DNA of 22,675 bases, taken from IMG/VR virus record IMGVR_UViG_3300046642_000866, positions 1-22,675 of that record; one strand, 5' to 3'. A program made the position numbers and the translations under genes. This document shows, one piece after another, positions 2,858 to 21,924 of this stretch; positions within the stretch are counted from its first letter, which is position 1; every line of letters begins with the position of its first letter. Below the pieces are notes generated by a model. The model had not been told where the DNA came from. It saw only the letters and a program-made list of their open reading frames with translations, and searched no databases. This DNA is from a virus.

Positions 2858-4129
2858 CTACTTCTGCTCCTGGAGCCCGTCCCAGCGCTCCTGCAACGTC
2901 TTCATGATGGCAGCTTCCATCGGCACCGTCACGCTCGAATACGTTCCCTCGACACCCGGCACCTCATGGCCCATCCGCGACTCCACCGCGAACCGGCTGT
3001 GCCCGTCCTCGTCCAGCCACGCCTTCGCGCCATGCCGCACCAGATAGAGGCGCCGGCCCGCGAACGACGGAACCGCGGGGATGGCCGGCCGGTTCCACCT
3101 GGCCTGCTTCGCCTTGCGCTCCTCGGCGCCGTCCGCGATCGGGCGCCACCACCGGTAGTCAAAGTTCACCACACCGAGACTCCCGCCCTCGAGCGCAGGG
3201 AACACCCACGGCCTGTCGTGCGAGGCAAGCAGCTTCTCCAGCAGCTCCGCCAGGAACGGCGGTACGACCAGGTTCCGGTAGGACTCGTACTTCGGCGGCA
3301 TGAACGCGAGCTTGCCGTCCTTGTACTGCACCTGCCGCTCCACCCGGATGGCAGGCATGAGCCCGTCACCCTTGCCGTACCGCAGGAGGTCGTCTTCGTA
3401 GCGGTCGTGGTCGTCGGGGTTCGACCGCAGGTCCGTGCCGGGCCAGTTGGGATAGCAGTACTCGCGGGTCAGCCCGTACAGCTCAGCCGGCCGCATGCCG
3501 GTGCAGGCCATCGTCCAGATGAAGACGTAGCCCGAATCGCCCAGAAGCGTCCGGGCGTTGACCGCGAGCTGCTCCACAGCCGCGGCCGTCATGTCGGGCT
3601 TGCGTTCCTTCGGCTTGCGCGTGTACCGGCCGCGGCGTCTGGTGCGCTCCACCGGGGATGTCCTGATGAGTCGCGGCACCGCGTCGTCGAGGATCATGCC
3701 GAAGATGGTCATGACCTTCTTCGCCGTGTTCGGCTTGAGCACGCTGTTGACGTGCTTGCGGAAGGCACGGAAGGCCATCACGTCGATGTCGGCGACGGCA
3801 GCGTTGCGCTTCCTGAAGTACGGGCGGATGTGGGTCTCGATGATGGACCGGTAGTTCCGCTCCGTCAGATGCGCGTGGTCCAGGCCCGCAAGCCAGCTGT
3901 CGAGCCAGTCGGACATGAGGGTCGCGCCGTCTGCATTCTTCACGTGCGAGCCGTGGCGGATCTCGTAGATCTTGTCCTGGCCGTGCCGGAACGCCTCGTC
4001 CTCGTCGGTGAAACCGCCCTTGGACTCGAACCGTTTGCGGCCGTCGTCGTGATACTCGCCCGACCACCACTTCACACGGCAGGTACCGCCCCGCCACTCC
4101 GTATAGACGTCCGTCGCGCGTCTGGCCAT
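2858..4129 (-). CDS. int: Tyrosine-family site-specific integrase
   Basis: This 423-residue protein catalyses integration, and with a directionality factor excision, of the element. The order is an N-terminal arm-binding-like region (1-65), a SAM-like core-binding domain (about 68-155, 'LTERNYRSIIETHIRPYF') and a C-terminal catalytic domain. Catalytic residues visible are Arg213 in 'ACTGMRPAELYGL', Lys280 in 'MPPKYESYRNLVVPP', Arg365 in 'LYLVRHGAKAWL', His388 in 'RMGHEV' and the nucleophile Tyr397 in 'GTYSSVT'. The first His of the usual HxxR box is replaced, probably by Tyr362, a tolerated but less common variant. Length is normal for actinophage integrases. It is the last gene of a leftward group and ends at the tandem repeats proposed as attP arms. 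Confidence 0.95.
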   Translation of the reverse strand: MARRATDVYTEWRGGTCRVKWWSGEYHDDGRKRFESKGGFTDEDEAFRHGQDKIYEIRHGSHVKNADGATLMSDWLDSWLAGLDHAHLTERNYRSIIETHIRPYFRKRNAAVADIDVMAFRAFRKHVNSVLKPNTAKKVMTIFGMILDDAVPRLIRTSPVERTRRRGRYTRKPKERKPDMTAAAVEQLAVNARTLLGDSGYVFIWTMACTGMRPAELYGLTREYCYPNWPGTDLRSNPDDHDRYEDDLLRYGKGDGLMPAIRVERQVQYKDGKLAFMPPKYESYRNLVVPPFLAELLEKLLASHDRPWVFPALEGGSLGVVNFDYRWWRPIADGAEERKAKQARWNRPAIPAVPSFAGRRLYLVRHGAKAWLDEDGHSRFAVESRMGHEVPGVEGTYSSVTVPMEAAIMKTLQERWDGLQEQK

Positions 4130-4570: not shown

Positions 4571-5005
4571 CTAGATCAGCCCGCGTTCACGCAAGTCGCG
4601 CACCACCCGCTCGCTCATCTCTCGGATCTCCTCCGCCGTCGTCCCCTTCGCCGTCGCCACCAGGGCCAGCTGGACGACACCACGCGCCTCCTCGTCGATG
4701 ACCTCACGAGGCATCGGCGACTTCTGGACACCGGCCGCGTCTGGGTCGGTCATCGCCGCGACAGGAATCGGCTCGCCGCCCTCAAGGATCGCCCTGGAAC
4801 TGCCGGGCGCCCACTTCAGCAAGCCGTCGATCTTCACGTAGTTGGTCTCGCGGATCTCAAGGCCCTTCTCGACACGCTGCCAGGTCCGGTTGGAGAGGCC
4901 GCCGGCTTTGGCGTTCTTGTCGTTGAGGGCAAGGCCGAGCTCGGCTCGGCGGCGGCGGGCGGTCGTCGCCAGCCTCTCGTAGTCCCATTCGTCGGCGCGT
5001 GGCAT
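4571..5005 (-). CDS. XRE-type helix-turn-helix protein, candidate lysogeny repressor
   Basis: This 144-residue protein starts at ATG 5005; the ribosome site is weak. Residues 8-75 are a helix-turn-helix of the XRE type ('ATTARRRRAELGLALNDKNA', 'GLSNRTWQRVEKG', 'YVKIDGLLKWAPGSSRAILE'), a variant often seen in actinophage and Streptomyces element repressors. Residues 85-144 are a helical, charged tail ('TTAEEIREMSERVVRDLRER') that may dimerise; there is no LexA-type peptidase domain, so RecA-driven self-cleavage is not expected. It faces the Cro-like gene at 5182 across an intergenic region with four AGATGCC half-sites, the classic immunity-switch arrangement. Its identity as the repressor is inferred from position. 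Confidence 0.8.
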   Translation of the reverse strand: MPRADEWDYERLATTARRRRAELGLALNDKNAKAGGLSNRTWQRVEKGLEIRETNYVKIDGLLKWAPGSSRAILEGGEPIPVAAMTDPDAAGVQKSPMPREVIDEEARGVVQLALVATAKGTTAEEIREMSERVVRDLRERGLI

Positions 5006-5092
5006 GGGCTCATCTTGGCAGGACTGGCGGGGACCAGCCAGGACTGGGGGGCACTTAGGCCCAATCTCGACCCCAAATCAGCGCAGGTCGGT

Positions 5093-5165
5093 AGGCATCT
5101 AGAGGTTAGATGCCTTGATCGCCACCAACAGGTGCGTACAGATGCCTAGACAGGATGGGCATCTA
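5093..5165. promoter_or_regulatory. Immunity-type operator: four AGATGCC half-sites between divergent XRE genes
   Basis: Two inverted pairs are present: AGGCATCTA (5093-5101) with TAGATGCCT (5107-5115), a perfect 9-bp inverted repeat with 5-base spacer; and AGATGCC (5140-5146) with GGCATCT (5158-5164), 11-base spacer. The pair centres are 48 bases apart. A possible rightward -35, TTGATC (5115-5120), abuts the first pair, and a TATAGG -10-like hexamer (5164-5169) overlaps the last half-site and would give a nearly leaderless transcript for the ATG at 5182. Binding by the repressor and/or the Cro-like protein is inferred. Confidence 0.65.
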
Positions 5166-5181
5166 TAGGTAGGTTCTGTGC

Positions 5182-5427
5182 ATGGCACAAACCCCAACCA
5201 CCTTCGAAGTGGACGGGACGGCTATCTGCACCAAGCGCATGAACGCGGGGATGGAAGTCCAGCAACTCGCAGACAAGGCGGGGATAACTCCCAGCTACCT
5301 GCGAAAGCTCGAACGCGGGTCTCGCACTCGCATGAAGCCTGCGACCTACGTCCGGCTCAGAGCCGCCCTGAGAGCGAACAAGACCGAACTCCTCGCCCCC
5401 CACTCGGACCCCCCAGAAAGGAAGTGA
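5182..5427 (+). CDS. XRE-family Cro-like regulator
   Basis: This 81-residue protein starts at ATG 5182; no strong ribosome site precedes it and it may be nearly leaderless. An XRE helix-turn-helix covers residues 15-68 ('MNAGMEVQQLADKAGITPSY', 'LRKLERGSRTRM', 'YVRLRAALRANKTELL'). It is the first gene of the rightward early operon, divergent from the longer XRE protein at 4571-5005, as Cro is to CI. Its stop precedes the next gene's GTG by one base, so they are translationally coupled. Confidence 0.8.
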   Translation: MAQTPTTFEVDGTAICTKRMNAGMEVQQLADKAGITPSYLRKLERGSRTRMKPATYVRLRAALRANKTELLAPHSDPPERK

Positions 5428-5428
5428 C

Positions 5429-5704
5429 GTGCCCACGCAGCAGTCCCCCCGCGAACCCGTCGAGCCGAAGTACCTCGACGCCCCCTTCTTCAGCGTCCTG
5501 GAGACGGCGTGGCTCCTGAAGTGCAGCTACGACACCGTGCTCCGACTCATCAGGTCTAACCGGCTCGGCGCCAGCCAGGACCAAAAGGGCGGCGCCATCC
5601 GCGTCAGCCGCCAGGACATCGACGCCTACTACGCGGCCTCCCGCGTGACTCCGGCAACCCGGGGACGAACCGCTCGCCGCAAGCCGGCCCGCGCCGCCGC
5701 CTAA
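5429..5704 (+). CDS. Excisionase-like (HTH_17/AlpA-type) DNA-binding protein
   Basis: This 91-residue protein starts at GTG 5429, one base after the preceding stop, with AAAGGAAG 8-15 bases upstream. Residues 17-68 form a MerR/excisionase-like winged helix: 'PFFSVLETAWLLKCSYDTVL', 'RLIRSNRLGASQDQKGGAIR', 'VSRQDIDAYYAAS'. The C-terminus is basic (RGRTARRKPARAAA). Proteins of this family act as recombination directionality factors for tyrosine integrases or as regulators; being next to the Cro-like gene in the early operon, either use is possible. It is the natural Xis candidate for the integrase in this window. Confidence 0.75.
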   Translation: MPTQQSPREPVEPKYLDAPFFSVLETAWLLKCSYDTVLRLIRSNRLGASQDQKGGAIRVSRQDIDAYYAASRVTPATRGRTARRKPARAAA

Positions 5705-5706
5705 CG

Positions 5707-5757
5707 GCCGCGGCCCCAACCGCCGGTTCGCACACCGACAGCCGGGGCCACCGCGGC
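5707..5757. terminator. Long-stem hairpin between early genes
   Basis: GCCGCGGCCCC (5707-5717) pairs with GGGGCC-A-CCGCGGC (5744-5757) with one bulged base and a 26-base loop that itself contains CCGG elements. It lies directly after the excisionase-like gene and could attenuate transcription into the long block of early genes. Confidence 0.4.
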
Positions 5758-5806
5758 TCACGCCGCGCGATCCACCCACACCATCCAAGAAGAGAAGGGC
5801 AGACCG

Positions 5807-6247
5807 TTGCCTGACATCGTCTCATCCGCACCCGAGGTCACGAAGACCTCGCCCGTGACTGAGCTGCGGGAAGCCGTAGCGAAGCTCCGCAAGCACGTGA
5901 AGCACGCGACCGATGGTCCATGGGTCACCAGTTCTGTCTGGTCGCCGCGCGCCGTATCGACGAGCGCTGTCTACTCCCACGCTCACCCGACGGGCACGGT
6001 CGAGTCCGAGGTCGTCGCCTCAGGGAAGATCCGTTCCGGCTACGGCGGGATCCGGGAGCCGTGGAATGCCGAGTACATCACCCTCATGCAGCCCGCCCTC
6101 GGCGCCGCGCTGGCCGACCTGCTGGAGCTGGAGGCCGACGTCATTGCGGCCCGGATCGCCCAGGCCGGCAGCGACGAGTACGCCGTCGACCTCGGCGGAG
6201 ACCACGCCCTGACGATCGCCCGCTTGATCAACGGCGGTGCGCGATGA
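5807..6247 (+). CDS. Hypothetical early protein, Ea22-like C-terminal pattern
   Basis: This 146-residue protein starts at TTG 5807, preceded by AGAAGGGCAG; other in-frame starts are much further in. Residues about 35-45 contain 'ATDGPW' and residues 90-115 read 'NAEYITLMQPALGAALADLL', a pattern like the 'NA+YI...P..+..LL.ELE' segment found in many phage early proteins of the Ea22 type. The biochemical function of that group is not known to me. It is the first gene of a coupled chain (overlaps the next start by 4 bases). Assignment to the Ea22 group is tentative. Confidence 0.7.
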   Translation: MPDIVSSAPEVTKTSPVTELREAVAKLRKHVKHATDGPWVTSSVWSPRAVSTSAVYSHAHPTGTVESEVVASGKIRSGYGGIREPWNAEYITLMQPALGAALADLLELEADVIAARIAQAGSDEYAVDLGGDHALTIARLINGGAR

Positions 6248-10646: not shown

Positions 10647-10675
10647 GCCTTCAGTGCACCCAGAAACGAGAGCTC

Positions 10676-10918
10676 ATGTACCTCACCCGCACCTTCGGCC
10701 GCTGGCAGTTCGAACTGCACCAGCGGGCGATCCACCTCACCCGGACACCGAAAGCGGACCCGACCTGCGGCGCCTGCTACGGGCGCGGCGGCCACGGCTG
10801 GCTCACCTACAGCGGCGACCCCGACTGGGAGGACTGCCACTGCCTCAAGGAGATCCGCACCTGGCGACTGCCCCTCTGGACCCGCCGCAACGTCACCGCA
10901 GAGAGGTACCCCTTCTGA
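10676..10918 (+). CDS. Small zinc-ribbon-like protein
   Basis: This 80-residue protein starts at ATG 10676. It has two Cys pairs, Cys31/Cys34 in 'CGACYGRGGHGWL' and Cys54/Cys56 in 'DCHCLKE'. The first pair with its Gly-rich follow-up resembles a DnaJ-type CxxCxGxG zinc knuckle, suggesting a single zinc site. It overlaps the following nuclease start by one base (TGATG), so it is translated together with the recombination module and may be an accessory to it. Function unknown. Confidence 0.65.
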   Translation: MYLTRTFGRWQFELHQRAIHLTRTPKADPTCGACYGRGGHGWLTYSGDPDWEDCHCLKEIRTWRLPLWTRRNVTAERYPF

Positions 10919-11760
10919 TGACCGATCCCCGACACGCCCACGACACCGACAACGGCCGCTACTACACGGACCCTGCCGGCGGCCCGGACCTCGTCTCCGT
11001 GACCAACGTTCTCGGCACCAGCGTCCACAAGCACGCGTTGATGCCGTGGGCCGTCAAGCTCACCGTCGAGTGGATCCTCGACCACCGCATGGAAGTCGCC
11101 CGGCGTGCCATCACGGACCGCGCGGCGCTCACCAAACAGCTCAAGCAGATCCACGTCGACGCGCGGGATACCGCATCCGACCTCGGCACCCGCATCCACA
11201 AGGCGGCAGAGCAGCGGCTTCTCGGGTCGCCGTTCGCAGTCGACCGCGAAGTCGGCCCCTACCTCGCCCAGTTGGAAGCGTTCCTCGGCTTCTGGGGCGT
11301 CGACATCGACAAGCACGTCGAAGCCGCCGAGATCACCTGCCTGCACCGCCGCCTCGGCTACGCCGGCACGGCGGACCTCATGATCTGGCTGCCCACCGGC
11401 GAAGGGCGTGAGCTCGAACTCTGGCTGATCGACTTCAAGACGTCGGCCACCCGCTCCGCGAAGTCGGTCTACCCGGAGAACACCCAGCAGCTGGCCGCCC
11501 TGCGCTACTGCGAGACCGTCCTGCTCCCGGATGACACCGAGCAGCCGATGCCGGAAATCCAGAAGACCGGCGTCCTCAACCTGCGGGCCAAGTCCCACGC
11601 TCTCGTCGAGATGCCCGCCGGGCGCGACGCCCACAAAGCCTTCCGCGGCGCCCTCGTCAACGCGCTGTGGCACCACGCCGCCCCCTCCTCGTATCCCGCC
11701 CTCCTCGCCCCCGACCAGCCTGTCCCGGCCCGGTGGCGCAACTTCCGAAAGGTGGCCTGA
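10918..11760 (+). CDS. Cas4/RecB-like PD-(D/E)XK nuclease
   Basis: This 280-residue protein starts at ATG 10918. The nuclease motifs are in order: 'GTRIHKAAE' with His94 (RecB/Cas4 motif I), 'GYAGTADLM' with Asp153, 'LWLIDFKTS' with Asp172 and Lys174 (the D...D-x-K core), and 'ENTQQLAALRYCE' (the Q-xxx-Y motif). No Fe-S cysteine set of true Cas4 is visible. Such phage proteins act as exonucleases in recombination or DNA-end processing. It is followed after 2 bases by the Gp3-like gene and then by a DnaQ-like exonuclease, so this is a DNA recombination/processing module. Confidence 0.85.
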   Translation: MTDPRHAHDTDNGRYYTDPAGGPDLVSVTNVLGTSVHKHALMPWAVKLTVEWILDHRMEVARRAITDRAALTKQLKQIHVDARDTASDLGTRIHKAAEQRLLGSPFAVDREVGPYLAQLEAFLGFWGVDIDKHVEAAEITCLHRRLGYAGTADLMIWLPTGEGRELELWLIDFKTSATRSAKSVYPENTQQLAALRYCETVLLPDDTEQPMPEIQKTGVLNLRAKSHALVEMPAGRDAHKAFRGALVNALWHHAAPSSYPALLAPDQPVPARWRNFRKVA

Positions 11761-11762
11761 CC

Positions 11763-12719
11763 GTGGGCTCCCGACTCCTCAACATCCAACGGCGCGCCGC
11801 CGAACACGGCCGCCTCCGCACCGGCTACACCCAGGGCAATCGGCCCGTCCGCTCCGCCACCTGGGTCGTCACCTCCCACTCCGAAGAGCACGTCCGCACG
11901 GCCGCGAAGCTGTGGGGCGGCGAGCCGGAGTCGTGGAAGCCGCTCAACTCGACGATTGACCAGTGGCGGGTCATCACCAAGGCGTCGTCCATCGAGGCTC
12001 TGATCACGCCCGGCGATCCGCTGAACCAGTACAACGAGATGTGGTCCGCGGGCGGCTGCCAGCGCCGATGCGACGGCGAGACCGAGCTCCTGTCCCGCAA
12101 GGCGTGCCTGTGCACCGCGCAGTTCGGTGAGGACTGGCACCAGCAGCCCAAGGGCCGCGTCTGCTCCGCCACATCCCGCCTGAACGTCATGCTCCCCGAT
12201 CTGTCCGGGATGGGCCTGTGGCGGGCCGAGACCCACTCCTTCTATGCCGCGTCCGAGTGGGGCGGCATGGTCGACATGGTCCTCGCCGGAACGAACGGCG
12301 ACGGCTTCGTCCCGGTCACGCTGCGGATTGAACCGCGGCAGGTCGTCCGCGAGGGGCAGACGAAGAAGTTCCCGGTCGTCGTAGTCGAGCTTCGCGGCGT
12401 GACCCCGCGGCAGGCACTGTCCGGCCCGTTGTCCACGGCGCTGGCGCTAGACCCCTCGGGTGGCGGACAGGCCGTCGCCGCGATCGAGGCGCCCCGCCCG
12501 GACTACGTCGCCGAGGCCGAAGGCTCGCTCACTTCCGACGACGTCCGCGACGTGTGGCGCAAGGCCCGTGTGGCCGGCCACGTCGACCCGAAGGGAAGCG
12601 ACGAGCTGTCCAAGCAGCTCATGGCCATCGCCGAGCGCATGGACGCCGAAGCCGAGCCGGTCGAGGCCGAGCTGGAGCCCGAAGGCGGCTGGCCGGCCGT
12701 CGCCCAAGTCCCCGCCTAG
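11763..12719 (+). CDS. Gp3-like protein (phiC31 recombination directionality factor family)
   Basis: This 318-residue protein starts at GTG 11763 with AAAGGTGG upstream. The pattern 'LNIQRRAAEHGRLRTGYT', then 'NEMWSAGGCQRRCDG' (Cys99, Cys103) and 'KACLC' (Cys115, Cys117), and 'CSATSRLNVMLPDLSGMGLW' is what I recall of the phage phiC31 gp3 family, where gp3 turns the serine integrase from integration to excision. Cys99/103/115/117 probably bind zinc. The C-terminal 70 residues are acidic and variable. Because this window holds a tyrosine, not serine, integrase, the protein may instead work with the adjacent Cas4-like nuclease, or act on an integrase outside the window. The family call is from memory. 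Confidence 0.65.
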   Translation: MGSRLLNIQRRAAEHGRLRTGYTQGNRPVRSATWVVTSHSEEHVRTAAKLWGGEPESWKPLNSTIDQWRVITKASSIEALITPGDPLNQYNEMWSAGGCQRRCDGETELLSRKACLCTAQFGEDWHQQPKGRVCSATSRLNVMLPDLSGMGLWRAETHSFYAASEWGGMVDMVLAGTNGDGFVPVTLRIEPRQVVREGQTKKFPVVVVELRGVTPRQALSGPLSTALALDPSGGGQAVAAIEAPRPDYVAEAEGSLTSDDVRDVWRKARVAGHVDPKGSDELSKQLMAIAERMDAEAEPVEAELEPEGGWPAVAQVPA

Positions 12720-12790: not shown

Positions 12791-13495
12791 ATGACTTGGC
12801 ACACCGGTCGCATGGCCGGCTTCGACATCGAAAGCACCGGACCCGACCCTCTCACCGCCCGCATCGTCACCGCCTGCATCGTCCAATGCGGCGGCGACCA
12901 GCCCGTCAACGCGGCCAACTGGCTGACCGACGTCGACGGGGAGATGATCCCCGACGAGGCCGCCGCGATCCACGGCATCAGCACCGAACAGGCCCGCGCC
13001 GAAGGCGTACCACTCGCCGAGGCCGTCACCGAGATCATCGCGGGGCTGACGCAGGCCATCCTCTCCGGCATTCCGATCGTGGCGATGAACGCCCGCTACG
13101 ACCTCACCCTCCTCGACCGCGAGGCGGAACGGCTCGGCCTCGCTGCGCTCCCGGCCGGCCCGGTCATCGACCCGTTCGTCATCGACAAGCAGGTCGACAA
13201 GTACCGGCCCGGAAAGCGCACCCTCACCGCCCTCTGCCAGCACTATGCGGTGCCGCTCGATGCCGCGCACTCCGCAGACGCCGACGCCATCGCGGCGTGC
13301 CGCGTCGCCTGGCGGCAGGGCGCACAGCACCCCGCGCTGAGCCTCATGACGCTCGACGAACTGCACACCGCCCAGACCAAGTGGGCTGCCGAACAGGCCG
13401 CTTCGCTTCAGGAGTACTTCCGCAAGAAGGACCCGCAGGCGGTCGTTGAGGGCGCCTGGCCGATCATCCCCCGCCAGCAAGAAGGTGCCCGATGA
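12791..13495 (+). CDS. DnaQ-like (DEDDh) 3'-5' exonuclease
   Basis: This 234-residue protein starts at ATG 12791 with AGGAG 10-14 bases upstream. The DEDDh motifs are all present: Asp12 and Glu14 in 'GFDIESTGPDP', Asp104 in 'NARYDLTLLD' and His160/Asp165 in 'HSADADA'. 'IPDEAAAIHGISTEQARAEG' is the family's usual linker after Exo I. It degrades single-stranded DNA 3' ends, as a proofreading-type or general exonuclease. It overlaps the next gene by ATGA. Confidence 0.9.
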   Translation: MTWHTGRMAGFDIESTGPDPLTARIVTACIVQCGGDQPVNAANWLTDVDGEMIPDEAAAIHGISTEQARAEGVPLAEAVTEIIAGLTQAILSGIPIVAMNARYDLTLLDREAERLGLAALPAGPVIDPFVIDKQVDKYRPGKRTLTALCQHYAVPLDAAHSADADAIAACRVAWRQGAQHPALSLMTLDELHTAQTKWAAEQAASLQEYFRKKDPQAVVEGAWPIIPRQQEGAR

Positions 13496-13899
13496 CCTAC
13501 ATCCAGCCCGCGTTCGACGGCGCCGAGCTCGCCGCCGCAGCCCCGGCCAAGACCCGCCGCATAGTCGACGACTTCGAGGCCTGGGTCACCGAGGTCTGGG
13601 ACGCGTTCGTCGAGGCCGCCGACTCCCGCGAGCCGTTCACGATCGCGGACGTCGCCGCCCGCATGCAGCTGCCCGATCCGCCCCGCCCGGCCAGCCAGTG
13701 GGGCAGCCTCCCCGCCCGCCTTCAGGACGCGGGGATCATCTGCCACCACGGATTCGGCGGCAGCCAGCGCGCCCACCAGTCCCTCGTCCACGTGTGGATC
13801 GGCGTCCCCGTCGCCATGCGGGAAATGGTCGCCGCCCGGCGCCGCGAAGAACGCGCCGCACGACGGGCCGCCCGCCAGCAGGAGAGGCGGGCGGCGTGA
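13492..13899 (+). CDS. Winged-helix-like hypothetical protein
   Basis: This 135-residue protein starts at ATG 13492 (4-base overlap). Residues 45-85 ('EPFTIADVAARMQLPDPPRP', 'WGSLPARLQDAGIICHHG') look like a small winged helix, with a basic Arg/Ala-rich tail ('RRREERAARRAARQQERRAA') able to bind nucleic acid. It lies between the exonuclease and the adenine methyltransferase and overlaps both. No named family is recognised. Confidence 0.65.
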   Translation: MTYIQPAFDGAELAAAAPAKTRRIVDDFEAWVTEVWDAFVEAADSREPFTIADVAARMQLPDPPRPASQWGSLPARLQDAGIICHHGFGGSQRAHQSLVHVWIGVPVAMREMVAARRREERAARRAARQQERRAA

Positions 13900-14903
13900 A
13901 GCTCACCGACGACATCCTCACTGCGCTCCGCGAGCGGGCCGAGATCGACGGCAACCGCCTCGTCCTCACCGGCCCGCGCATGGACCCCAAGCTGTACCAA
14001 CTCGTCAACGAAGTCCTCGAAGCCGTCGGAGGCCGCTGGACCACCAGCGTCCAGGCGCACGTGTTCCCCGTCGACGCCGCCGAGGCGATCGCCCCCGTCC
14101 TGGAGACCGGACAGGTGGTGACGTTGCGGGAGAAGCGGCAGCAAGCCCAGTACTTCCCGACCCCGGCCGCCGTGGTCCAGCGGCTCATCGAACTCGCGGA
14201 CGTACAGCCGGGCATGGAAGCCCTCGAGCCGTCGGCTGGCTCGGGCGCCATCGCCACCGCTGCCGCAGATCACGGCGCGGTCGTCGACTGCATCGAGCGA
14301 GACCCCGGATACGCCGCAGTACTCACCGACGCGGGCGTCGCGCGAGCCCTGTACGTCGCCGACTTCCTCACCGTGCCCGCCGCCGCTCGGTACGACCGGG
14401 TCGTCATGAACCCGCCCTTCACCAAAGGCGCCGACATCGCCCACGTCGAACACGCCCTCCGGTTCCTCAAGCCGGACGGGCTGCTGGTCTCGGTGATGTC
14501 GTGGGCCGTCACCTACCAGACGAGCAAGACCGCGACATTCCGGGCGCTGGTCGAGGCCCGCGGCGGCACCGTCGAGGCGGTCGCCGAAGGAGCGTTCCGT
14601 GAGTCCGGCACCGACGTACCCACCGTCATCGTCACCATCCCCGCCACCCGGCCTGTCGATGCCAAGCCGACCGTCTGGCCCGCGCGGGACGTGCTGAAGG
14701 AGACGAAGGAGCAGCTCCAAGACCCACTGACCATCGCCAACGAGATCAGGGCCAGTCTCCGAAACGCGTTGAGGGAGTTCGACGCGGTCGCCGCCTCCCT
14801 CGCCAAGCCGCCGCCGAAGGTTGCCGAAGCACGTGAGGCCGACGTCATCAAGCTGGCCGCCCAAGAGCAGTTGTCCCTCGACGGGCTCGGGGAGGCGTCG
14901 TGA
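13896..14903 (+). CDS. N6-adenine DNA methyltransferase
   Basis: This 335-residue protein starts at GTG 13896 (GTGA overlap). The class I SAM-dependent fold is clear: 'QYFPTPAAVVQRLIEL' (motif X, residues 86-100), 'ALEPSAGSGAIA' (SAM-binding motif I, 109-120), an acidic motif II at 'CIERDPG', and 'VMNPPFTKG' with the catalytic NPPF at 172-175. It transfers a methyl group to adenine N6 in DNA. Residues 1-80 precede the catalytic domain and are unlike typical target-recognition regions. No partner restriction gene is adjacent, so it is an orphan methyltransferase, likely for phage DNA self-protection. Confidence 0.88.
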   Translation: MKLTDDILTALRERAEIDGNRLVLTGPRMDPKLYQLVNEVLEAVGGRWTTSVQAHVFPVDAAEAIAPVLETGQVVTLREKRQQAQYFPTPAAVVQRLIELADVQPGMEALEPSAGSGAIATAAADHGAVVDCIERDPGYAAVLTDAGVARALYVADFLTVPAAARYDRVVMNPPFTKGADIAHVEHALRFLKPDGLLVSVMSWAVTYQTSKTATFRALVEARGGTVEAVAEGAFRESGTDVPTVIVTIPATRPVDAKPTVWPARDVLKETKEQLQDPLTIANEIRASLRNALREFDAVAASLAKPPPKVAEAREADVIKLAAQEQLSLDGLGEAS

Positions 14904-14992: not shown

Positions 14993-15270
14993 GGGACAAC
15001 CTGGCCGCCGTCCTCGCCGCCGCGTTCTGGGGCCTGGCCATATCCGTGGCGGTCCTCGTGATCACCACGGCCGGGGTCGTCGTTACCGCTGGCTACTGGA
15101 CCGCCCGCCTCGCCATCTGGGGCGGACAGCGAGCCCGCCACCGCTGGGACCTCCGGCGGATGCGACGACGGCCCGCACGCAAGACGGCCGCCAGCGAACA
15201 GGCCGTCCTCGACTACCTCACCATCCGCCGCGCCTGGCGGCAGCCCACACGAGAGGAGATCAGCCGATGA
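14989..15270 (+). CDS. Small membrane protein with basic cytoplasmic tail
   Basis: This 93-residue protein starts at GTG 14989 (GTGA overlap). Residues 4-40 form one long or two close hydrophobic segments ('AAVLAAAFWGLAISVAVLVI', 'TAGVVVTAGYW'). Residues 48-93 are strongly basic ('RARHRWDLRRMRRRPARK') and probably cytoplasmic. The function is unknown. It sits between the methyltransferase and the WhiB-like gene, in one coupled run. Confidence 0.6.
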   Translation: MRDNLAAVLAAAFWGLAISVAVLVITTAGVVVTAGYWTARLAIWGGQRARHRWDLRRMRRRPARKTAASEQAVLDYLTIRRAWRQPTREEISR

Positions 15271-15668
15271 GCCGCTACGACTGGATGGAAGACGCGCGCT
15301 GCGCACAGACCGACCCTGAACTTTGGCATCCGGAAGGCAGTGGCGCCGGCTACTCCGACGCCAGGAAGATTTGCACCGGCTGCCCCGTCCAGCAGCAGTG
15401 CGCCGACTTCGCCCTGGCCACGGAAGGAGAGCTGGCCCACAACCGCCGCCACGGCATGTGGGGCGCCCAACTCCCGCGGACCCGCTCCAAGGCGGCCGGT
15501 GGCAACGAGCGCCGACGGCGGGAGGCCGAACGCCGCCAGAAGGTCTTCAGCCTCCTCGAGCGCGGCGCCATGGACGCCTACCAGATCGCCGACGCCGTCG
15601 GATGCCACGTCCGCACCGTGTGGCGCATCGCCGAGGCCTACCGCGAGCAGATGGGGGAGGCGGCATGA
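15267..15668 (+). CDS. WhiB-like Fe-S regulator with C-terminal helix-turn-helix
   Basis: This 133-residue protein starts at ATG 15267 (ATGA overlap). The four cluster-ligating Cys are Cys12, Cys36, Cys39 and Cys45 (C-x23-CxxC-x5-C), in 'RCAQTDPELWHP' and 'ARKICTGCPVQQQCADFAL'; the turn motif is GMWGA at 63-67, close to the family's GVWGG. WhiB-like proteins carry a [4Fe-4S] cluster and alter transcription with the vegetative sigma factor; phage WhiB proteins are known to control host septation and superinfection in mycobacteria. Unusually, residues 95-130 add a helix-turn-helix ('AYQIADAVGCHVRTVWRIAE') beyond the usual WhiB length. Confidence 0.9.
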   Translation: MSRYDWMEDARCAQTDPELWHPEGSGAGYSDARKICTGCPVQQQCADFALATEGELAHNRRHGMWGAQLPRTRSKAAGGNERRRREAERRQKVFSLLERGAMDAYQIADAVGCHVRTVWRIAEAYREQMGEAA

Positions 15669-17916: not shown

Positions 17917-18855
17917 GTGAGTACTGAGGCCGTCACGTGGGCCATGGACCGCGCACCCATGCCGCGCACCGAGAAGGGGAAGCCGGACACGACAGCCCGG
18001 CACATCCTTCAGGCGCTCGCTGAGCATGCGAGTCCGGCCGGCACTGACGCGCATCCTTCGGTACTCCGCATTCAGTACCGCACCGGCTTCGACCGGGCCA
18101 CCGTGCAGCGCGCGCTGCGCCGGCTCGAGAAGGCCGGACTGATCGTCAGGGACGGAACCCGTGAGGGCCGGACCCGATACAAGCTCGCGATGGAACTGTG
18201 CCGCCCCGCGACCGACTGGAATGACCTCGAGCGCGAAGAGGACGAGTTCCGTGCCGCCGCCGCGGAGCGGAAGCGCCGGTCCCGTTCGAAGGGTGTCACG
18301 CACGCAGAGTCCGTGACCGTCACGGACGTAGAAGGCGTGACTGTCACGCACGCAGAGTCCGTGACCGACGAATGTCACGCACTTAAAGTCCGTTCGTCAC
18401 GCACGGAACGCAGCCCTAACCACCAACAACCGTCAGACAAACAACTACTGGAAGACTCTTCTCTCGCCGCCGCCTCGAACCAGCCCGAGAAGCCGGTCGC
18501 CCCGGTCCAGACCAAGAGCGGCAGCGAGAAGGCCGGGCATCACCTCGAGGCCTTCGGTGCCTTCTTGTCGAACTACCCGAAGAAGCGCGACCGCGAGGAA
18601 GCCAAGAAGGCGTGGATCGCTGCTATCGAACGCGGCGTAGATCCCAAGCACATGGTCGATGCAGCCCAGGCCTACGCCCGCGAGCGCTTCGGCCAGGACC
18701 CCAAGTACACGAAGCTCCCGGCCACCTGGCTGAACAAGGGCTGCTACGACGACGAGCCCGATCCTCAGCCCGGCCCGCAGCTCCGCGCTGTCTCCGGCGG
18801 CTACCAGCCGTACCGCAATCCCACCGACCAATCCGTCTACGACGAGGACTTCTGA
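17917..18855 (+). CDS. Phage replication initiator, lambda O-like (winged helix plus C-terminal domain)
   Basis: This 312-residue protein starts at GTG 17917 with GAAGGAAG 6-13 bases upstream. Residues 24-95 are a winged helix of the kind found in phage and plasmid initiators ('TARHILQALAEHASPAGTDA', 'GFDRATVQRALRRLEKAGLI', 'GRTRYKL'). Residues 105-205 are a low-complexity linker that contains three 8-residue repeats (127-150). Residues 210-280 carry 'FLSNYPKKRDREEAKKAWIA' and 'PATWLNKGCYDDE', the 'YP+K...A.KAW...ATWLN' pattern of the C-terminal part of O-like proteins. It is followed directly by a DnaC-like loader and, after one gene, by DnaB. The likely role is binding the origin and recruiting the loader/helicase. 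The DNA of its linker looks like the origin itself. Confidence 0.8.
   Translation: MSTEAVTWAMDRAPMPRTEKGKPDTTARHILQALAEHASPAGTDAHPSVLRIQYRTGFDRATVQRALRRLEKAGLIVRDGTREGRTRYKLAMELCRPATDWNDLEREEDEFRAAAAERKRRSRSKGVTHAESVTVTDVEGVTVTHAESVTDECHALKVRSSRTERSPNHQQPSDKQLLEDSSLAAASNQPEKPVAPVQTKSGSEKAGHHLEAFGAFLSNYPKKRDREEAKKAWIAAIERGVDPKHMVDAAQAYARERFGQDPKYTKLPATWLNKGCYDDEPDPQPGPQLRAVSGGYQPYRNPTDQSVYDEDF
18295..18405 (+). repeat. Iteron array, candidate replication origin inside the initiator gene
   Basis: Three tandem 24-bp units lie at 18295-18318, 18319-18342 and 18343-18366. Units 1 and 3 are identical; unit 2 matches at 18 of 24 positions. Each begins GTCACG and ends CGTGAC plus one base, so the junctions form 15-bp interrupted palindromes CCGTGACCGTCACGG (18311-18325) and GCGTGACTGTCACGC (18335-18349). 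Degenerate copies follow: TGTCACGCAC, 4 other bases, AGTCCGT (18373-18393), and GTCACGCAC at 18396-18404. A stretch about 57% A+T (18417-18460) comes next, low in GC for this genome and a candidate unwinding element. Origin function is inferred from the lambda ori layout. Confidence 0.6.
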
Positions 18856-19565
18856 TGCAGTACATCCCGCCCTCGAACCTCCGGGGCCACGACATCGAGC
18901 CGCTGCTCGCCGCCCGCGGCCTCGACCTCAACTGGTGGAACGAAAACGACTTCGACCCGCACTCCACCGCCAACGTCGCCCGCCACACCTACGCTGCCGT
19001 CGCCGACGTGGTGCCGTTCCACTACCGGTCCGCGGTCTCGTCGCTGCCGCAGCTGCGCGTCTGGATCGACATGCTCGTCGCTGACGCCAAGCAGGCGCAG
19101 GCCGAGCGTGGGGCGCCGATCGCCGCGGTCAACATCGGTCCGTCGCTGCTGCTGCTCGGTTCGACCGGCGTTGGCAAGACGCATGAGGCATACGGGGCGA
19201 TGCGGGAGCTGGCCGTCACGGGGGTGTCCGCCCGCTGGGCCGTGACCACCGCCGCCGACCTGTACGCAGCTCTCCGGCCGCGCCACGGCGTCGACTCCGA
19301 AGCCGAGTTCGACCGCTACCGGGGCGCCCGCCTCCTGCTGATCGACGACCTCGGCGCCGACCGAAAGCCCACTGAGTTCACCGAGGAGGTCAACTTCCGG
19401 CTGATCAACCACCGGTACGAGAACCACCTCCCCACGCTGATCACCTCCAACGTCGGGCCGGCAGAGCTCGCCGGGCGTCTCGGCGACCGCGTCACCAGCC
19501 GCCTCGCCGAAATGTGCGAGCGCGTCCCGATGAAGGGCAACGACCGTCGCCGGAGGGCAGCGTGA
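18855..19565 (+). CDS. DnaC-like helicase loader (AAA+ ATPase)
   Basis: This 236-residue protein starts at ATG 18855, sharing one base with the previous stop (TGATG). The AAA+ motifs are clear: Walker A GSTGVGKT at 102-109, Walker B 'LLLIDDLGADR' at 160-170, sensor 'TLITSN' at 194-199 and an arginine-finger segment 'GDRVTSRLAEM' at 210-220. This is the DnaC/IstB type that loads replicative helicase at an origin. The N-terminal 95 residues would contact DnaB. The order initiator, loader, then helicase supports the role. Confidence 0.88.
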   Translation: MQYIPPSNLRGHDIEPLLAARGLDLNWWNENDFDPHSTANVARHTYAAVADVVPFHYRSAVSSLPQLRVWIDMLVADAKQAQAERGAPIAAVNIGPSLLLLGSTGVGKTHEAYGAMRELAVTGVSARWAVTTAADLYAALRPRHGVDSEAEFDRYRGARLLLIDDLGADRKPTEFTEEVNFRLINHRYENHLPTLITSNVGPAELAGRLGDRVTSRLAEMCERVPMKGNDRRRRAA

Positions 19566-20545
19566 CGAACATCAGCCTCTGCTCGGTCGCGGGAACCCTC
19601 GACCTGGCCGTCGAGCAGATCACCGGCAACAAGACCCTCGTCTATGCCGAGAACGACCCGTTCGCGAGCCGCGTCATGGAAGCCCGGTTCCCGTGGGCCA
19701 CCAACCTCGGCGACATCACCACCGCCGACTGGGCGGGCATCGCCCAGCAGTACCAGATCGACTCACTGTCGGCCGGATTCCCGTGCCGCAACATCAGCAA
19801 CGCAGGAGACAAAAGTGGCGTCAACGGGCAGTGGTCGAAGGTCTGGAAGAACGTTGCTCAAGCTGTGGGCGTCATTCGACCCCGCGTCGTCTTCCTGGAA
19901 AACGTTCAGGCGATCCTCTCGCGCGGCATCGACGTCGTCGTCGCCGACCTGGCCCAAATCGGGTATGACGCGCGGTGGACATGCCTACCAGCTCGCGACA
20001 TCGGGGCGCCCCACCTCAGGCGCCGCTGGTTCTGCATCGCGCATCCCGCTGCTTCCGACCCCGAGCGCAGCGGACGGTACCGGTGGCCCCGGGACCTCGC
20101 CGAAGCGCAAGGGCGGCATGAACCTGCGGACCGCCGTGACGCGCCTCCCGGAGGGCTGAGGCTGCTTCCGACACCCACAACCCAGAACGCGGGCGGCAAC
20201 CGCTGGAACAACCGCGGGGAGGCACTGCTCCCCGGGATACTCATGGGGTTGGACGGCCGATGGATCTCCCTCGACGGTGACGATTACGGCCCCGCCATCC
20301 GTCGGTGGGAGGGCATCCTCGGCCGCGAGGCGCCGGCGCCTACCGAGCGCACCCGCGGCGATGGGCGCGGCTTGTCCGCCCGCTTCGTCGAATGGATGCA
20401 GGGCGACGACGACGGATGGATCACGAGCGTCGACATCCCCCGCAACAAGCAGATCAAGATCGCTGGCAATCAGGCCATGACCCGCCAGGCCGTCGAGGGC
20501 TACCGCCGACTGCTCACTGCCGACCTGGAGGCGATGGCCGCATGA
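19562..20545 (+). CDS. C5-cytosine DNA methyltransferase
   Basis: This 327-residue protein starts at GTG 19562 (GTGA overlap). Motifs visible are a modified motif I 'ISLCSVAGTLDLAVE' (usual form FxGxGG), motif IV 'SAGFPCRNISNAG' with catalytic Cys75, motif VI 'FLENVQAI' (Glu113-Asn-Val) and motif VIII 'ARDIGAPHLRRRWF'. It methylates cytosine C5 in DNA. The target-recognition region (about 160-280) is short. The altered motif I is a point of doubt for full activity. It is inserted between the helicase loader and DnaB in a fully coupled run, with no restriction enzyme nearby, so it is an orphan enzyme that may modify phage DNA as it is replicated. Confidence 0.9.
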   Translation: MTNISLCSVAGTLDLAVEQITGNKTLVYAENDPFASRVMEARFPWATNLGDITTADWAGIAQQYQIDSLSAGFPCRNISNAGDKSGVNGQWSKVWKNVAQAVGVIRPRVVFLENVQAILSRGIDVVVADLAQIGYDARWTCLPARDIGAPHLRRRWFCIAHPAASDPERSGRYRWPRDLAEAQGRHEPADRRDAPPGGLRLLPTPTTQNAGGNRWNNRGEALLPGILMGLDGRWISLDGDDYGPAIRRWEGILGREAPAPTERTRGDGRGLSARFVEWMQGDDDGWITSVDIPRNKQIKIAGNQAMTRQAVEGYRRLLTADLEAMAA

Positions 20546-21924
20546 CCACCGAAACCGAAATGTGGGCCCCCGACGAGGTCGTGGCCGACGCCGGCCCGCG
20601 CCCGCCCGAGCGGCCCCGCGACATCGAAGCCGAACGCGTCCTCGTCGCCACCGCGATCATGCAGCCCGCCGCCATCGACGAACTCGGCGCCGAAGGGTTC
20701 GACCCCGCCGACATCACCACCGACTGGCTTCGCTGGAGCTGGTTCGCCGTCGAGGAACTCCGCACCAGCTTCCGCGACGGCGAGTTGAAGCACCTCGCCG
20801 TCCACCGGCAGCTCGAGGCCTGGCACGCCGACGGTCGCATGCCCACCCGCGTGCCCGTCGCCGACCAGCTCATGGAGCTCTGCAACGAAGCGCACTACGG
20901 CAACGCTGCCTGGTACGCAGCCCGCGTCGCCAAGAAGGCGGTCGCAGCCCGCGTTGTTGCCCTCGGCTACGACGCCATCCTCAAAGGCGGCTCCCCGGCC
21001 TTCGACGAAGACGCCGACGTTGCTTCCATCCAGGCCGACCTCGACGGCGCCGTCCGGCCCACCGACGAAAGCAACCTCGCCGCCATCGGCGACCTCCTCC
21101 TCGACAGCATCGAACGCGCCACCACTCCGCCCACCAACGAAGACCGCGTCCCCACTGGCTTCATCGACCTCGACAGCCTGCTCTGCGGCGGCTGGGCGCC
21201 CGGCCAGCTCGTCGTCGTCGGCGCCCGGCCCGCCATGGGCAAGTCGACGATCGCCCAGGACTTCGCCCGAGCCTCCGCCATCCGCTACAAGATCCCCACC
21301 CTGTTCGAGTCGCTGGAAATGTCGCAGGCGGAACTCTCCGACCGGATCCTGTCCGCCGAAGCCCGCATCGCTCACCACCACCTCAAGCAGGGCATCGCCA
21401 CCGACGACGACATGAAGCGGGCCGCCCGCCGCGCCCCCGACATCGCCGCCGCACCCCTGTGGATCAACGACGGAGCGCTGCTGTCCCTGCCCATCCTCCG
21501 CGGCCGGGTCCGCAACCTCGTCCGCACCAAAGGCCTCCGCCTGGTGATCGTCGACTACCTGCAGTTGATGCAGGCGCCGCGAGCGGAGAACCGGCAGCAG
21601 GCCGTCGCCGAGATCTCCCGCAACCTCAAGCTGATCGCCAAGGACTTCGGGATCACCGTCATCGTCCTGTGCCAGCTCAACCGCGGACCCGAACAGCGCA
21701 CCGAGAAGAAGCCCATGGTGTCCGACCTGCGCGAATCCGGCGCCATCGAGCAGGACGCCGACATGGTGATCCTGCTGCACCGTGAGGATGCCTACGAGAA
21801 GGAGTCCCCGCGCGCCGGCGAGGCCGACCTGATCGTCGGCAAGCATCGCGGCGGCCCAACCGCGACGATCACCGTCGCCTTCCAAGGTCATTACTCCCGC
21901 TTCGTGGACATGGCGGTTGCCTGA
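20542..21924 (+). CDS. dnaB: DnaB-type replicative DNA helicase
   Basis: This 460-residue protein starts at ATG 20542 (ATGA overlap). The N-terminal domain (27-130, 'DIEAERVLVATAIMQPAAID', 'VPVADQLMELCNEA') is typical of DnaB. The RecA-type C-terminal domain has 'VPTGFIDLDSLLCGGWAPGQ', Walker A GARPAMGKST at 227-236, 'FESLEMSQAELSDRILSAEA', Walker B 'LRLVIVDYLQLM' (Asp338) and 'SDLRESGAIEQDADMVILLH' with 'GKHRGGPT'. It unwinds DNA as a hexamer at the phage fork, and the DnaC-like protein two genes upstream is its likely loader. The length and motifs are complete. Confidence 0.96.
   Translation: MTTETEMWAPDEVVADAGPRPPERPRDIEAERVLVATAIMQPAAIDELGAEGFDPADITTDWLRWSWFAVEELRTSFRDGELKHLAVHRQLEAWHADGRMPTRVPVADQLMELCNEAHYGNAAWYAARVAKKAVAARVVALGYDAILKGGSPAFDEDADVASIQADLDGAVRPTDESNLAAIGDLLLDSIERATTPPTNEDRVPTGFIDLDSLLCGGWAPGQLVVVGARPAMGKSTIAQDFARASAIRYKIPTLFESLEMSQAELSDRILSAEARIAHHHLKQGIATDDDMKRAARRAPDIAAAPLWINDGALLSLPILRGRVRNLVRTKGLRLVIVDYLQLMQAPRAENRQQAVAEISRNLKLIAKDFGITVIVLCQLNRGPEQRTEKKPMVSDLRESGAIEQDADMVILLHREDAYEKESPRAGEADLIVGKHRGGPTATITVAFQGHYSRFVDMAVA

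Follow-up and report, generated by a model that had tools for sequence, protein, structure and literature searches.

The phiC31 integrase and its recombination directionality factor (RDF), gp3, are widely used engineering tools, and such factors raise two questions: why phages use RDFs that are so unlike one another and what gp3 does in phage replication. Gp3 of phiC31 and phiBT1 does not by itself bind att DNA (PMC3132441; PMC3836970, excerpt) and seems to be needed in these phages for excision as well as for phage DNA replication (PMC3836970, excerpt); it has been placed near replication genes (PMC5311408, excerpt), and seven residues of the phiC31 protein are described as required for integrase binding (PMC5814800, excerpt). 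The RDF of Bxb1, gp47, resembles gp3 in being needed for phage DNA replication too (excerpts of PMC3836970 and PMC12287305) and differs from it in belonging to an unrelated, phosphoesterase-like family. RDF relatives are known from phages that lack serine integrases, and RDFs may have been co-opted (PMC3132441); an RDF gene is also carried by the integrase-free phages of cluster EB (PMC10652889, excerpt). Other described systems that bear on the present locus include the exonuclease-annealase pairs known as SynExo (RecE/RecT, lambda Exo/Red-beta and the Erf pairs), in which the gene of an exonuclease is followed by that of its partner. As far as we know, Bxb1 gp47 is part of no such pair.

The stretch of DNA analysed here (the window, 22,675 bases) is a virus-record fragment of an actinophage-like temperate element, and its gene of interest is an open frame at 11763-12719 on the plus strand that starts with GTG and encodes 318 residues. 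The original prediction that the product is a relative of phiC31 gp3 is borne out by sequence and by structure. The Pfam family PF18897 (Gp3-like) matches residues 16-210 with E 7.6e-39 (134 bits against a cut-off of 23.6), and an AlphaFold2 model built from an alignment of 100 sequences (mean pLDDT 88.3) superposes on chain 9teh_I of the phiC31 RDF with Z 18.9 over 195 residues (rmsd 3.7, 18% identity). Structure prediction can be trusted for this family because a model of phiC31 gp3 made by the same procedure fits that protein’s own solved chain with Z 26.7. Among the PHROG families, the protein matches phrog_16191 (E 3.7e-100) and phrog_9220 (E 4.9e-11), the family to which phiC31 gp3 itself is assigned at 1.2e-104; a 16-row profile of the family retrieves the solved phiC31 RDF (9teh) at 8e-68, and the nearest named relatives, at 54% identity, are those of the Streptomyces phages VWB and SF3. 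The core domain (11808-12392, plus strand), delimited by the PF18897 match and by conservation, holds cysteines C99, C103, C115 and C117. This is the cluster that had been associated with phiC31 gp3 from the window sequence, and its residues do align, with C103, D104, G105 and C115 of the window protein standing opposite C117, D118, G119 and C135 of gp3; the cluster is a feature of the whole Gp3-like family. Behind the core lies a C-terminal helical domain (residues about 242-299, 12486-12659, plus strand), defined by model helices at 248-297 and by a profile that, among 28,714 ORFs, finds 160 Gp3-like ORFs and no ORF of another kind. Residues 242-299 also resemble the C-terminal part of the human EXOG nuclease (Z 6.5 over 55 residues), perhaps a chance likeness of small helix bundles.

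Directly upstream and on the same strand lies the gene of a RecB-like phage exonuclease (10918-11760; phrog_298 exonuclease family, E 5e-34), whose end at 11760 is separated from the start of the Gp3-like gene at 11763 by a gap of 2 nt. The frame listed for it (10654-11760) begins too early, and alignment with VWB gp8, mu1/6 gp13 and phiC31 gp1 places the start at the ATG at 10918. Cas4 proteins carry four cysteines for an Fe-S cluster. The product of 10918-11760 has two cysteines in total and hence is not a true Cas4, so that of the earlier description as a Cas4/RecB-like nuclease the second half stands and the first does not. A search of the PDB by sequence returned no relative of this exonuclease, and no Pfam family matched it above cut-off; it is 33% identical (E 1e-29) to an exonuclease that is paired with RecT in phage Sleepyhead. 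The third gene of the module encodes a DnaQ-like 3'-5' exonuclease (12791-13495, plus strand; NCBIfam NF005927, DNA polymerase III epsilon-type, E 2e-86, above cut-off), and farther downstream the early region continues with a WhiB-HTH protein, a replication initiation (O-like) protein (17917-18855, plus strand; phrog_270, E 1.4e-27) and a DnaB-like replicative helicase (20305-21924, plus strand; DnaB_C, E 8e-86). The WhiB-HTH gene (15267-15668) joins a WhiB domain to a C-terminal HTH_23 in a single protein of 133 residues, and the same early region holds two DNA methyltransferases, one N6/MTS and one C5-cytosine, at 13896-14903 and 19514-20545. Upstream of the Gp3-like gene are a tyrosine integrase (2858-4129, minus strand; phrog_1 integrase family, E 2e-30), with R, RH, GH and TY motifs that we take to be those of a tyrosine recombinase, and an excisionase-like HTH protein (5429-5704, plus strand; HTH_17, E 5e-9, and the excisionase families phrog_66 and phrog_2907); both had been recognised as such from the window alone.

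The name of the family and the solved structure of one RDF suggest that the Gp3-like protein might be a directionality factor here as well, serving either the tyrosine integrase or a serine integrase encoded in the unseen part of the element, of which the record is a fragment. We give this explanation hardly any credence. The serine integrase domain PF07508 was found neither in the 22,675-base record, a fragment whose missing part may hold one, nor in the complete phages VWB, SF3, mu1/6 and MinS1; VWB, a related complete phage, combines a tyrosine integrase with the same exonuclease-Gp3 pair, and the window has an excisionase-like gene of its own. Two results had been named beforehand as refuting the original prediction, a profile search that fails to support a Gp3-like identity and a serine integrase elsewhere in the element, and neither was obtained with this record or, for the integrase, with complete VWB. 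We extended the comparison to 99 records with a Gp3-like gene, taking PF07508 as the mark of a serine and phrog_1 as that of a tyrosine integrase. This census covered the window and records of 30 kb or more, including 50 of the 59 mu1/6-clade records of that size (the nine least similar, between L117 and L128, were left out), with the 229 phage records with a gp3 match and the records below 30 kb standing outside it. PF07508 scored above its cut-off in 20 of 49 and 7 of 50 of the records, and phrog_1 in 21 of 49 and 29 of 50, with weak serine matches below the family cut-off in L052 and L154 counted as none. Altogether 48 records had only a tyrosine integrase, 25 only a serine integrase, 2 both and 24, many of the records being fragments, neither. 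One of the unusual records is L019, a 175-kb IMG/VR record with both integrase types, Erf, SSB and a Gp3-like gene, which is probably host DNA or a set of several prophages.

The distribution over the clades of the family is uneven. In the phiC31 and Samy clades the integrase is of the serine type or missing; the window clade, to which VWB and SF3 belong, has 18 tyrosine, 1 serine, 1 both and 4 none (24 records), and the mu1/6 clade has 30 tyrosine, 7 serine, 1 both and 15 none (53 records). The serine-only records in these last two clades (7 of 53 and 1 of 24) are a further point that the directionality explanation can claim. On a tree of the 99 Gp3 proteins, which is quick and unrooted and in which long branches set the phiC31 clade apart from the others, the fewest changes between serine and tyrosine integrase number 8, against 21 in shuffles, and all 8 are forced by well-supported branches; recent swaps are seen in sister pairs, L059 (serine) and L060 (tyrosine) among them. 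At least eight changes of integrase type argue against a constant bond between Gp3-like proteins and any one integrase, and the family is untied to integrase type.

The residues by which gp3 meets its integrase tell against a directionality role in the window too. Three of the seven phiC31 binding residues (G27, C117 and G119) are identical in the window protein, and M105 and P154 of phiC31 are replaced by N91 and C134. The equivalents of G27, C117 and G119 are present in 47, 48 and 48 of the 48 tyrosine-only records, even though no serine integrase was detected there; M105 is found in 3 of the 48 and P154 in none. Conservation of the first three in tyrosine-only records is therefore not explained by a serine integrase, and they are best read as residues of the fold or of a zinc site. 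M105 and P154 are predicted to be candidate integrase-interface residues, a prediction because P154 also marks one clade. Set beside phiC31 gp3 and the other PF18897 RDFs, the window protein shares with them the family, the fold, the Cys cluster, the equivalents of G27, C117 and G119 and the position of an early-region gene near an exonuclease, whereas it differs from phiC31 gp3 in its tyrosine integrase, the 2-nt gap to the exonuclease, the additional C-terminal helical domain and the loss of M105 and P154.

What accompanies the family more steadily than any integrase is the exonuclease. A profile started from six annotated phage exonucleases and that of the window, and widened over three rounds, detects the exonuclease, encoded on the same strand, in 200 of the 212 loci that have a Gp3-like match. 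Among 110 non-redundant loci (under 80% identity, with at least 1.5 kb of upstream sequence and the duplicate loci L001, L116 and L120 dropped), 105 carry it upstream in the same orientation, and in 75 the distance is at most 150 nt. The gap of 150 nt or less is found in 37 of 37 loci of the window clade, 59 of 75 of the mu1/6 clade and 44 of 56 in bacterial genomes. In the phiC31 clade, covered by single-protein scans because its alignment is too diverse for a scan of the collection, none of 25 loci has the exonuclease within 150 nt and 23 of the 25 have it within 1.6 kb; in phiC31 itself the exonuclease is gene 1, with gp3 two genes on. The eight Samy-like loci have it outside the locus (0 of 8 within 150 nt), Samy’s own lying about 5 kb upstream. 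Phages without serine integrases are those in which the original prediction had proposed to count how often the two genes are neighbours, and 47 tyrosine-only records with at least 1.5 kb of upstream sequence all have the exonuclease upstream on the same strand, in 41 of them no more than 150 nt away, against 6 of 24 serine-only records with an adjacent exonuclease. Of 187 loci, 112 have a DnaQ-like gene in the 3 kb downstream of the Gp3-like gene, and 71 of 181 have a RuvC-like gene in the 4 kb downstream.

A pairing as tight as 37 of 37 in the window clade could also mean that the Gp3-like protein acts on the exonuclease, or on a host nuclease, by loading, restraining or inhibiting it and has no role on single-stranded DNA (ssDNA), and phiC31 gp3 does act by gripping another enzyme (PMC5814800, excerpt). 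We consider such a nuclease regulator very unlikely, as it leaves unexplained two observations, namely the mutual exclusion between Gp3-like proteins and RecT, Erf or Bet and the presence of a RecT domain on some Gp3-like proteins.

The first of these observations concerns the gene behind the exonuclease. Homologous exonucleases are followed by RecT in prophiT36-2a, Sleepyhead and Hirko, and in Frokostdame RecT comes after one small ORF. In the best 80 of 212 viral loci from an exonuclease alignment, the partner is RecT in 68, Gp3-like in 9, neither in 3 and both in none, a ratio of 68 to 9 that is biased, since ranking was by likeness to an exonuclease that has RecT as its partner. The 3 loci with neither have Erf, Erf and Bet directly behind the exonuclease, so that none of the 80 lacks both a known annealase and a Gp3-like protein; with redundancy removed, 65 loci from these best 80 comprise 59 RecT, 4 Gp3-like, 1 Erf and 1 Bet. 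Whole-record searches point the same way. PF18897 is absent from 49 of 49 RecT, Erf or Bet records, with its control positive, and a full-length match to the RecT family phrog_4171 from 47 of 47 Gp3 records, with three of three controls positive; in 6 of these 47 it matches by its C-terminal part only. An apparent second RecT gene in 8 Gp3 loci was rejected, since the match is only to the C-terminal domain of the Gp3-like ORF itself. A Pfam search of 50 Gp3 records for annealases and SSBs gave RecT 0, ERF 1, Rad52 0 and SSB 4, of which the 0 of 50 for RecT (PF03837) counts for little because PF03837 is a poor probe for actinophage RecT, reaching E 0.006 at best on three actinophage proteins annotated as such. 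The window record, as a fragment, contains no RecT, ERF or Rad52 gene, and Pfam, PHROG and NCBIfam scans place the window protein in none of those families. A Gp3-like protein occupies the slot of RecT, Erf or Bet behind the same family of exonucleases, and RecT and Gp3-like proteins exclude each other there. A counter-example is Clavibacter phage CN1A (L216, 2962-5151), where the homologous exonuclease is followed by a 66-residue ORF, DnaQ and SSB, with no annealase annotated; the small ORF or the SSB may fill the annealase role.

The second observation is a domain shared by the two kinds of partner. When the C-terminal domain of RecT, as a profile trained on RecT loci alone, was run against 28,714 ORFs of 292 loci, it identified 59 RecT proteins, 13 Gp3-like proteins and nothing else; 10 of the 13 are matched at a domain E of 1e-3 or better, and the 13 include matches of lower confidence. 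The Gp3-like protein of L101 is 45% identical over 84 residues (E 1e-13) to the end of the Frokostdame RecT, and phrog_4171 also detects the RecT-type domain on it (E 1.3e-9). The idea that the window protein’s own C-terminal domain is the RecT one was unsupported; the window type is found only in Gp3-like proteins, and phiC31 gp3 has neither type. Two Gp3-like proteins, those of L083 (ORF 5001-6152) and L084, match both C-terminal profiles, the window type and the RecT type. Red-beta of lambda uses its C-terminal domain to bind lambda exonuclease and SSB (PMC8303780, excerpt), and by analogy the RecT-type domain would dock on the exonuclease or on a host protein. The original prediction of a two-part recombination system gains support from these results, strengthened by the RecT/Erf/Bet slot and by the RecT C-terminal domain on some Gp3-like proteins.

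The model of the core offers a lead to its activity. After 9teh_I, and with matches to the C-terminal bundle set aside, the structures closest to the window model are nearly all OB-folds, chiefly ssDNA-binding ones, although the scores are weak (Z 3 to 5). The core matches include BRCA2, RB69 gp32 (Z 4.3, 132 residues aligned), T4 gp32 (Z 4.2, 138 aligned), SSBs and RPA; the phiC31 gp3 model likewise matches BRCA2 (4.9), SSBs and gp32, with polymerase epsilon and MCM interspersed. In a viral structure library the matches beyond the Gp3-like family are mostly uncharacterised phage proteins, together with the SSB of Vibrio phage YC (E 3.4e-3 and 1.3e-3); two such uncharacterised proteins that are structurally close are BFVD entries K4JPM6 (phiCbK; E 3.4e-5 with the phiC31 gp3 model) and A0A0E3XB15 (GordDuk1; E 5e-4 with the window model). 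HHalign finds no sequence relation of the core either to T4 gp32 or to RecT (probability 0.1% each). From the models, the Gp3-like core is likely to be an OB-fold, and the weak scores may mean only a common arrangement. T4 gp32 is a zinc protein. With gp32 and proteins of the T7 gp2.5 type the Gp3-like core would share an OB-fold-like build and a phage replication context, and with gp32 zinc-type cysteines as well; against this, the structural score to gp32 is only weak (Z 3.3 to 4.3) and no sequence relation accompanies it, so that the likeness to gp32 is a lead.

These neighbours, which are mostly proteins of the SSB type, raise the question of whether the Gp3-like protein is a general, gp32-like ssDNA-binding protein of replication that has no annealing or exonuclease work and whose neighbourhood is simply an early replication operon. 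A canonical SSB is absent from 46 of 50 Gp3 records, the O-like and DnaB replication genes lie downstream in the window, and phage replication seems to require gp3 (PMC3836970, excerpt), all of which would fit. We nevertheless judge a general ssDNA-binding role on its own unlikely, because the same slot behind the same exonuclease is taken by RecT, Erf and Bet, because a RecT phage, Hirko, can carry an SSB too, and because some members share a C-terminal domain with RecT.

We think it likely that Gp3-like proteins are the ssDNA-binding or annealing partners of the phage exonuclease, that is, stand-ins for RecT, and that the directionality role in phiC31 is a second use; we infer the function from context, domain sharing and fold. 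As in the SynExo pairs, a homologous exonuclease is followed by its partner, and RecT and the Gp3-like protein replace each other, some Gp3-like members carrying the RecT C-terminal domain; unlike in those pairs, the Gp3-like core has no detectable sequence relation to RecT and no Erf, Bet or Rad52 match, is OB-fold-like with a Cys cluster, and is credited with annealing as a proposal only. Several results weigh against the proposal: gp3 alone fails to bind att DNA, the core has no sequence link to gp32 or RecT and its OB-fold scores are weak, the exonuclease is not adjacent in the phiC31 clade and lies outside the Samy-like loci, phage CN1A has the exonuclease beside no annotated annealase, 4 of 50 Gp3 records carry an SSB and one an ERF, and the RecT-type domain is missing from the window protein. 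The RecB-like exonuclease would resect a double-strand end, and the Gp3-like core, with its OB-fold-like build and its Cys cluster, probably binding zinc, would capture the ssDNA tail and assist its annealing with a complementary strand. Docking on the exonuclease or on a host partner would fall to the C-terminal helical domain, in the manner of the Red-beta C-terminal domain of lambda, and the DnaQ-like exonuclease next door may trim 3' ends, so that the exonuclease-Gp3 pair would serve recombination-dependent phage replication and the repair of ends. The Gp3-like proteins of phiC31 and its kin have no such C-terminal domain, and it is there that a serine integrase would have come to bind the same protein. 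A serine integrase that binds an early replication protein would thereby tie prophage excision to the presence of that protein. The earlier interpretation of a general role with directionality as a later use is supported in its first part, and the word later stays conditional because the Gp3 tree is unrooted.

A bolder form of the proposal, which we are as ready to doubt as to accept, is that phiC31-type RDFs are an unrecognised family of phage annealing proteins, OB-fold-like and so built differently from the RecT/Red-beta/Rad52 and Erf folds, with the same exonuclease partner and in part the docking domain of RecT, that serine integrases later adopted as an excision signal. In that reading, the adoption of an early recombination protein would have wired exit from the chromosome to the start of recombination-dependent replication. 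The open-licence literature that we searched holds nothing that connects Gp3-like proteins with annealases, with the exonuclease slot or with an OB-fold. As far as that search goes, what is new is the pairing, together with the exclusion of RecT, the RecT domain shared by some members and the repeated swaps of integrase; the general idea is already known.

Should Gp3-like proteins prove to stand in for RecT, the primary function of gp3 could be tested directly, and the link between excision and replication would acquire a concrete molecule. The integrase-binding mutants of phiC31 gp3 would then sort into probable folding or zinc defects (G27, C117 and G119) and interface candidates (M105 and P154), and the genes called “recombination directionality factor” in actinophages without a serine integrase would deserve a better name. 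The exonuclease-Gp3 pairs would, moreover, become candidates for recombineering in Streptomyces and other actinobacteria.
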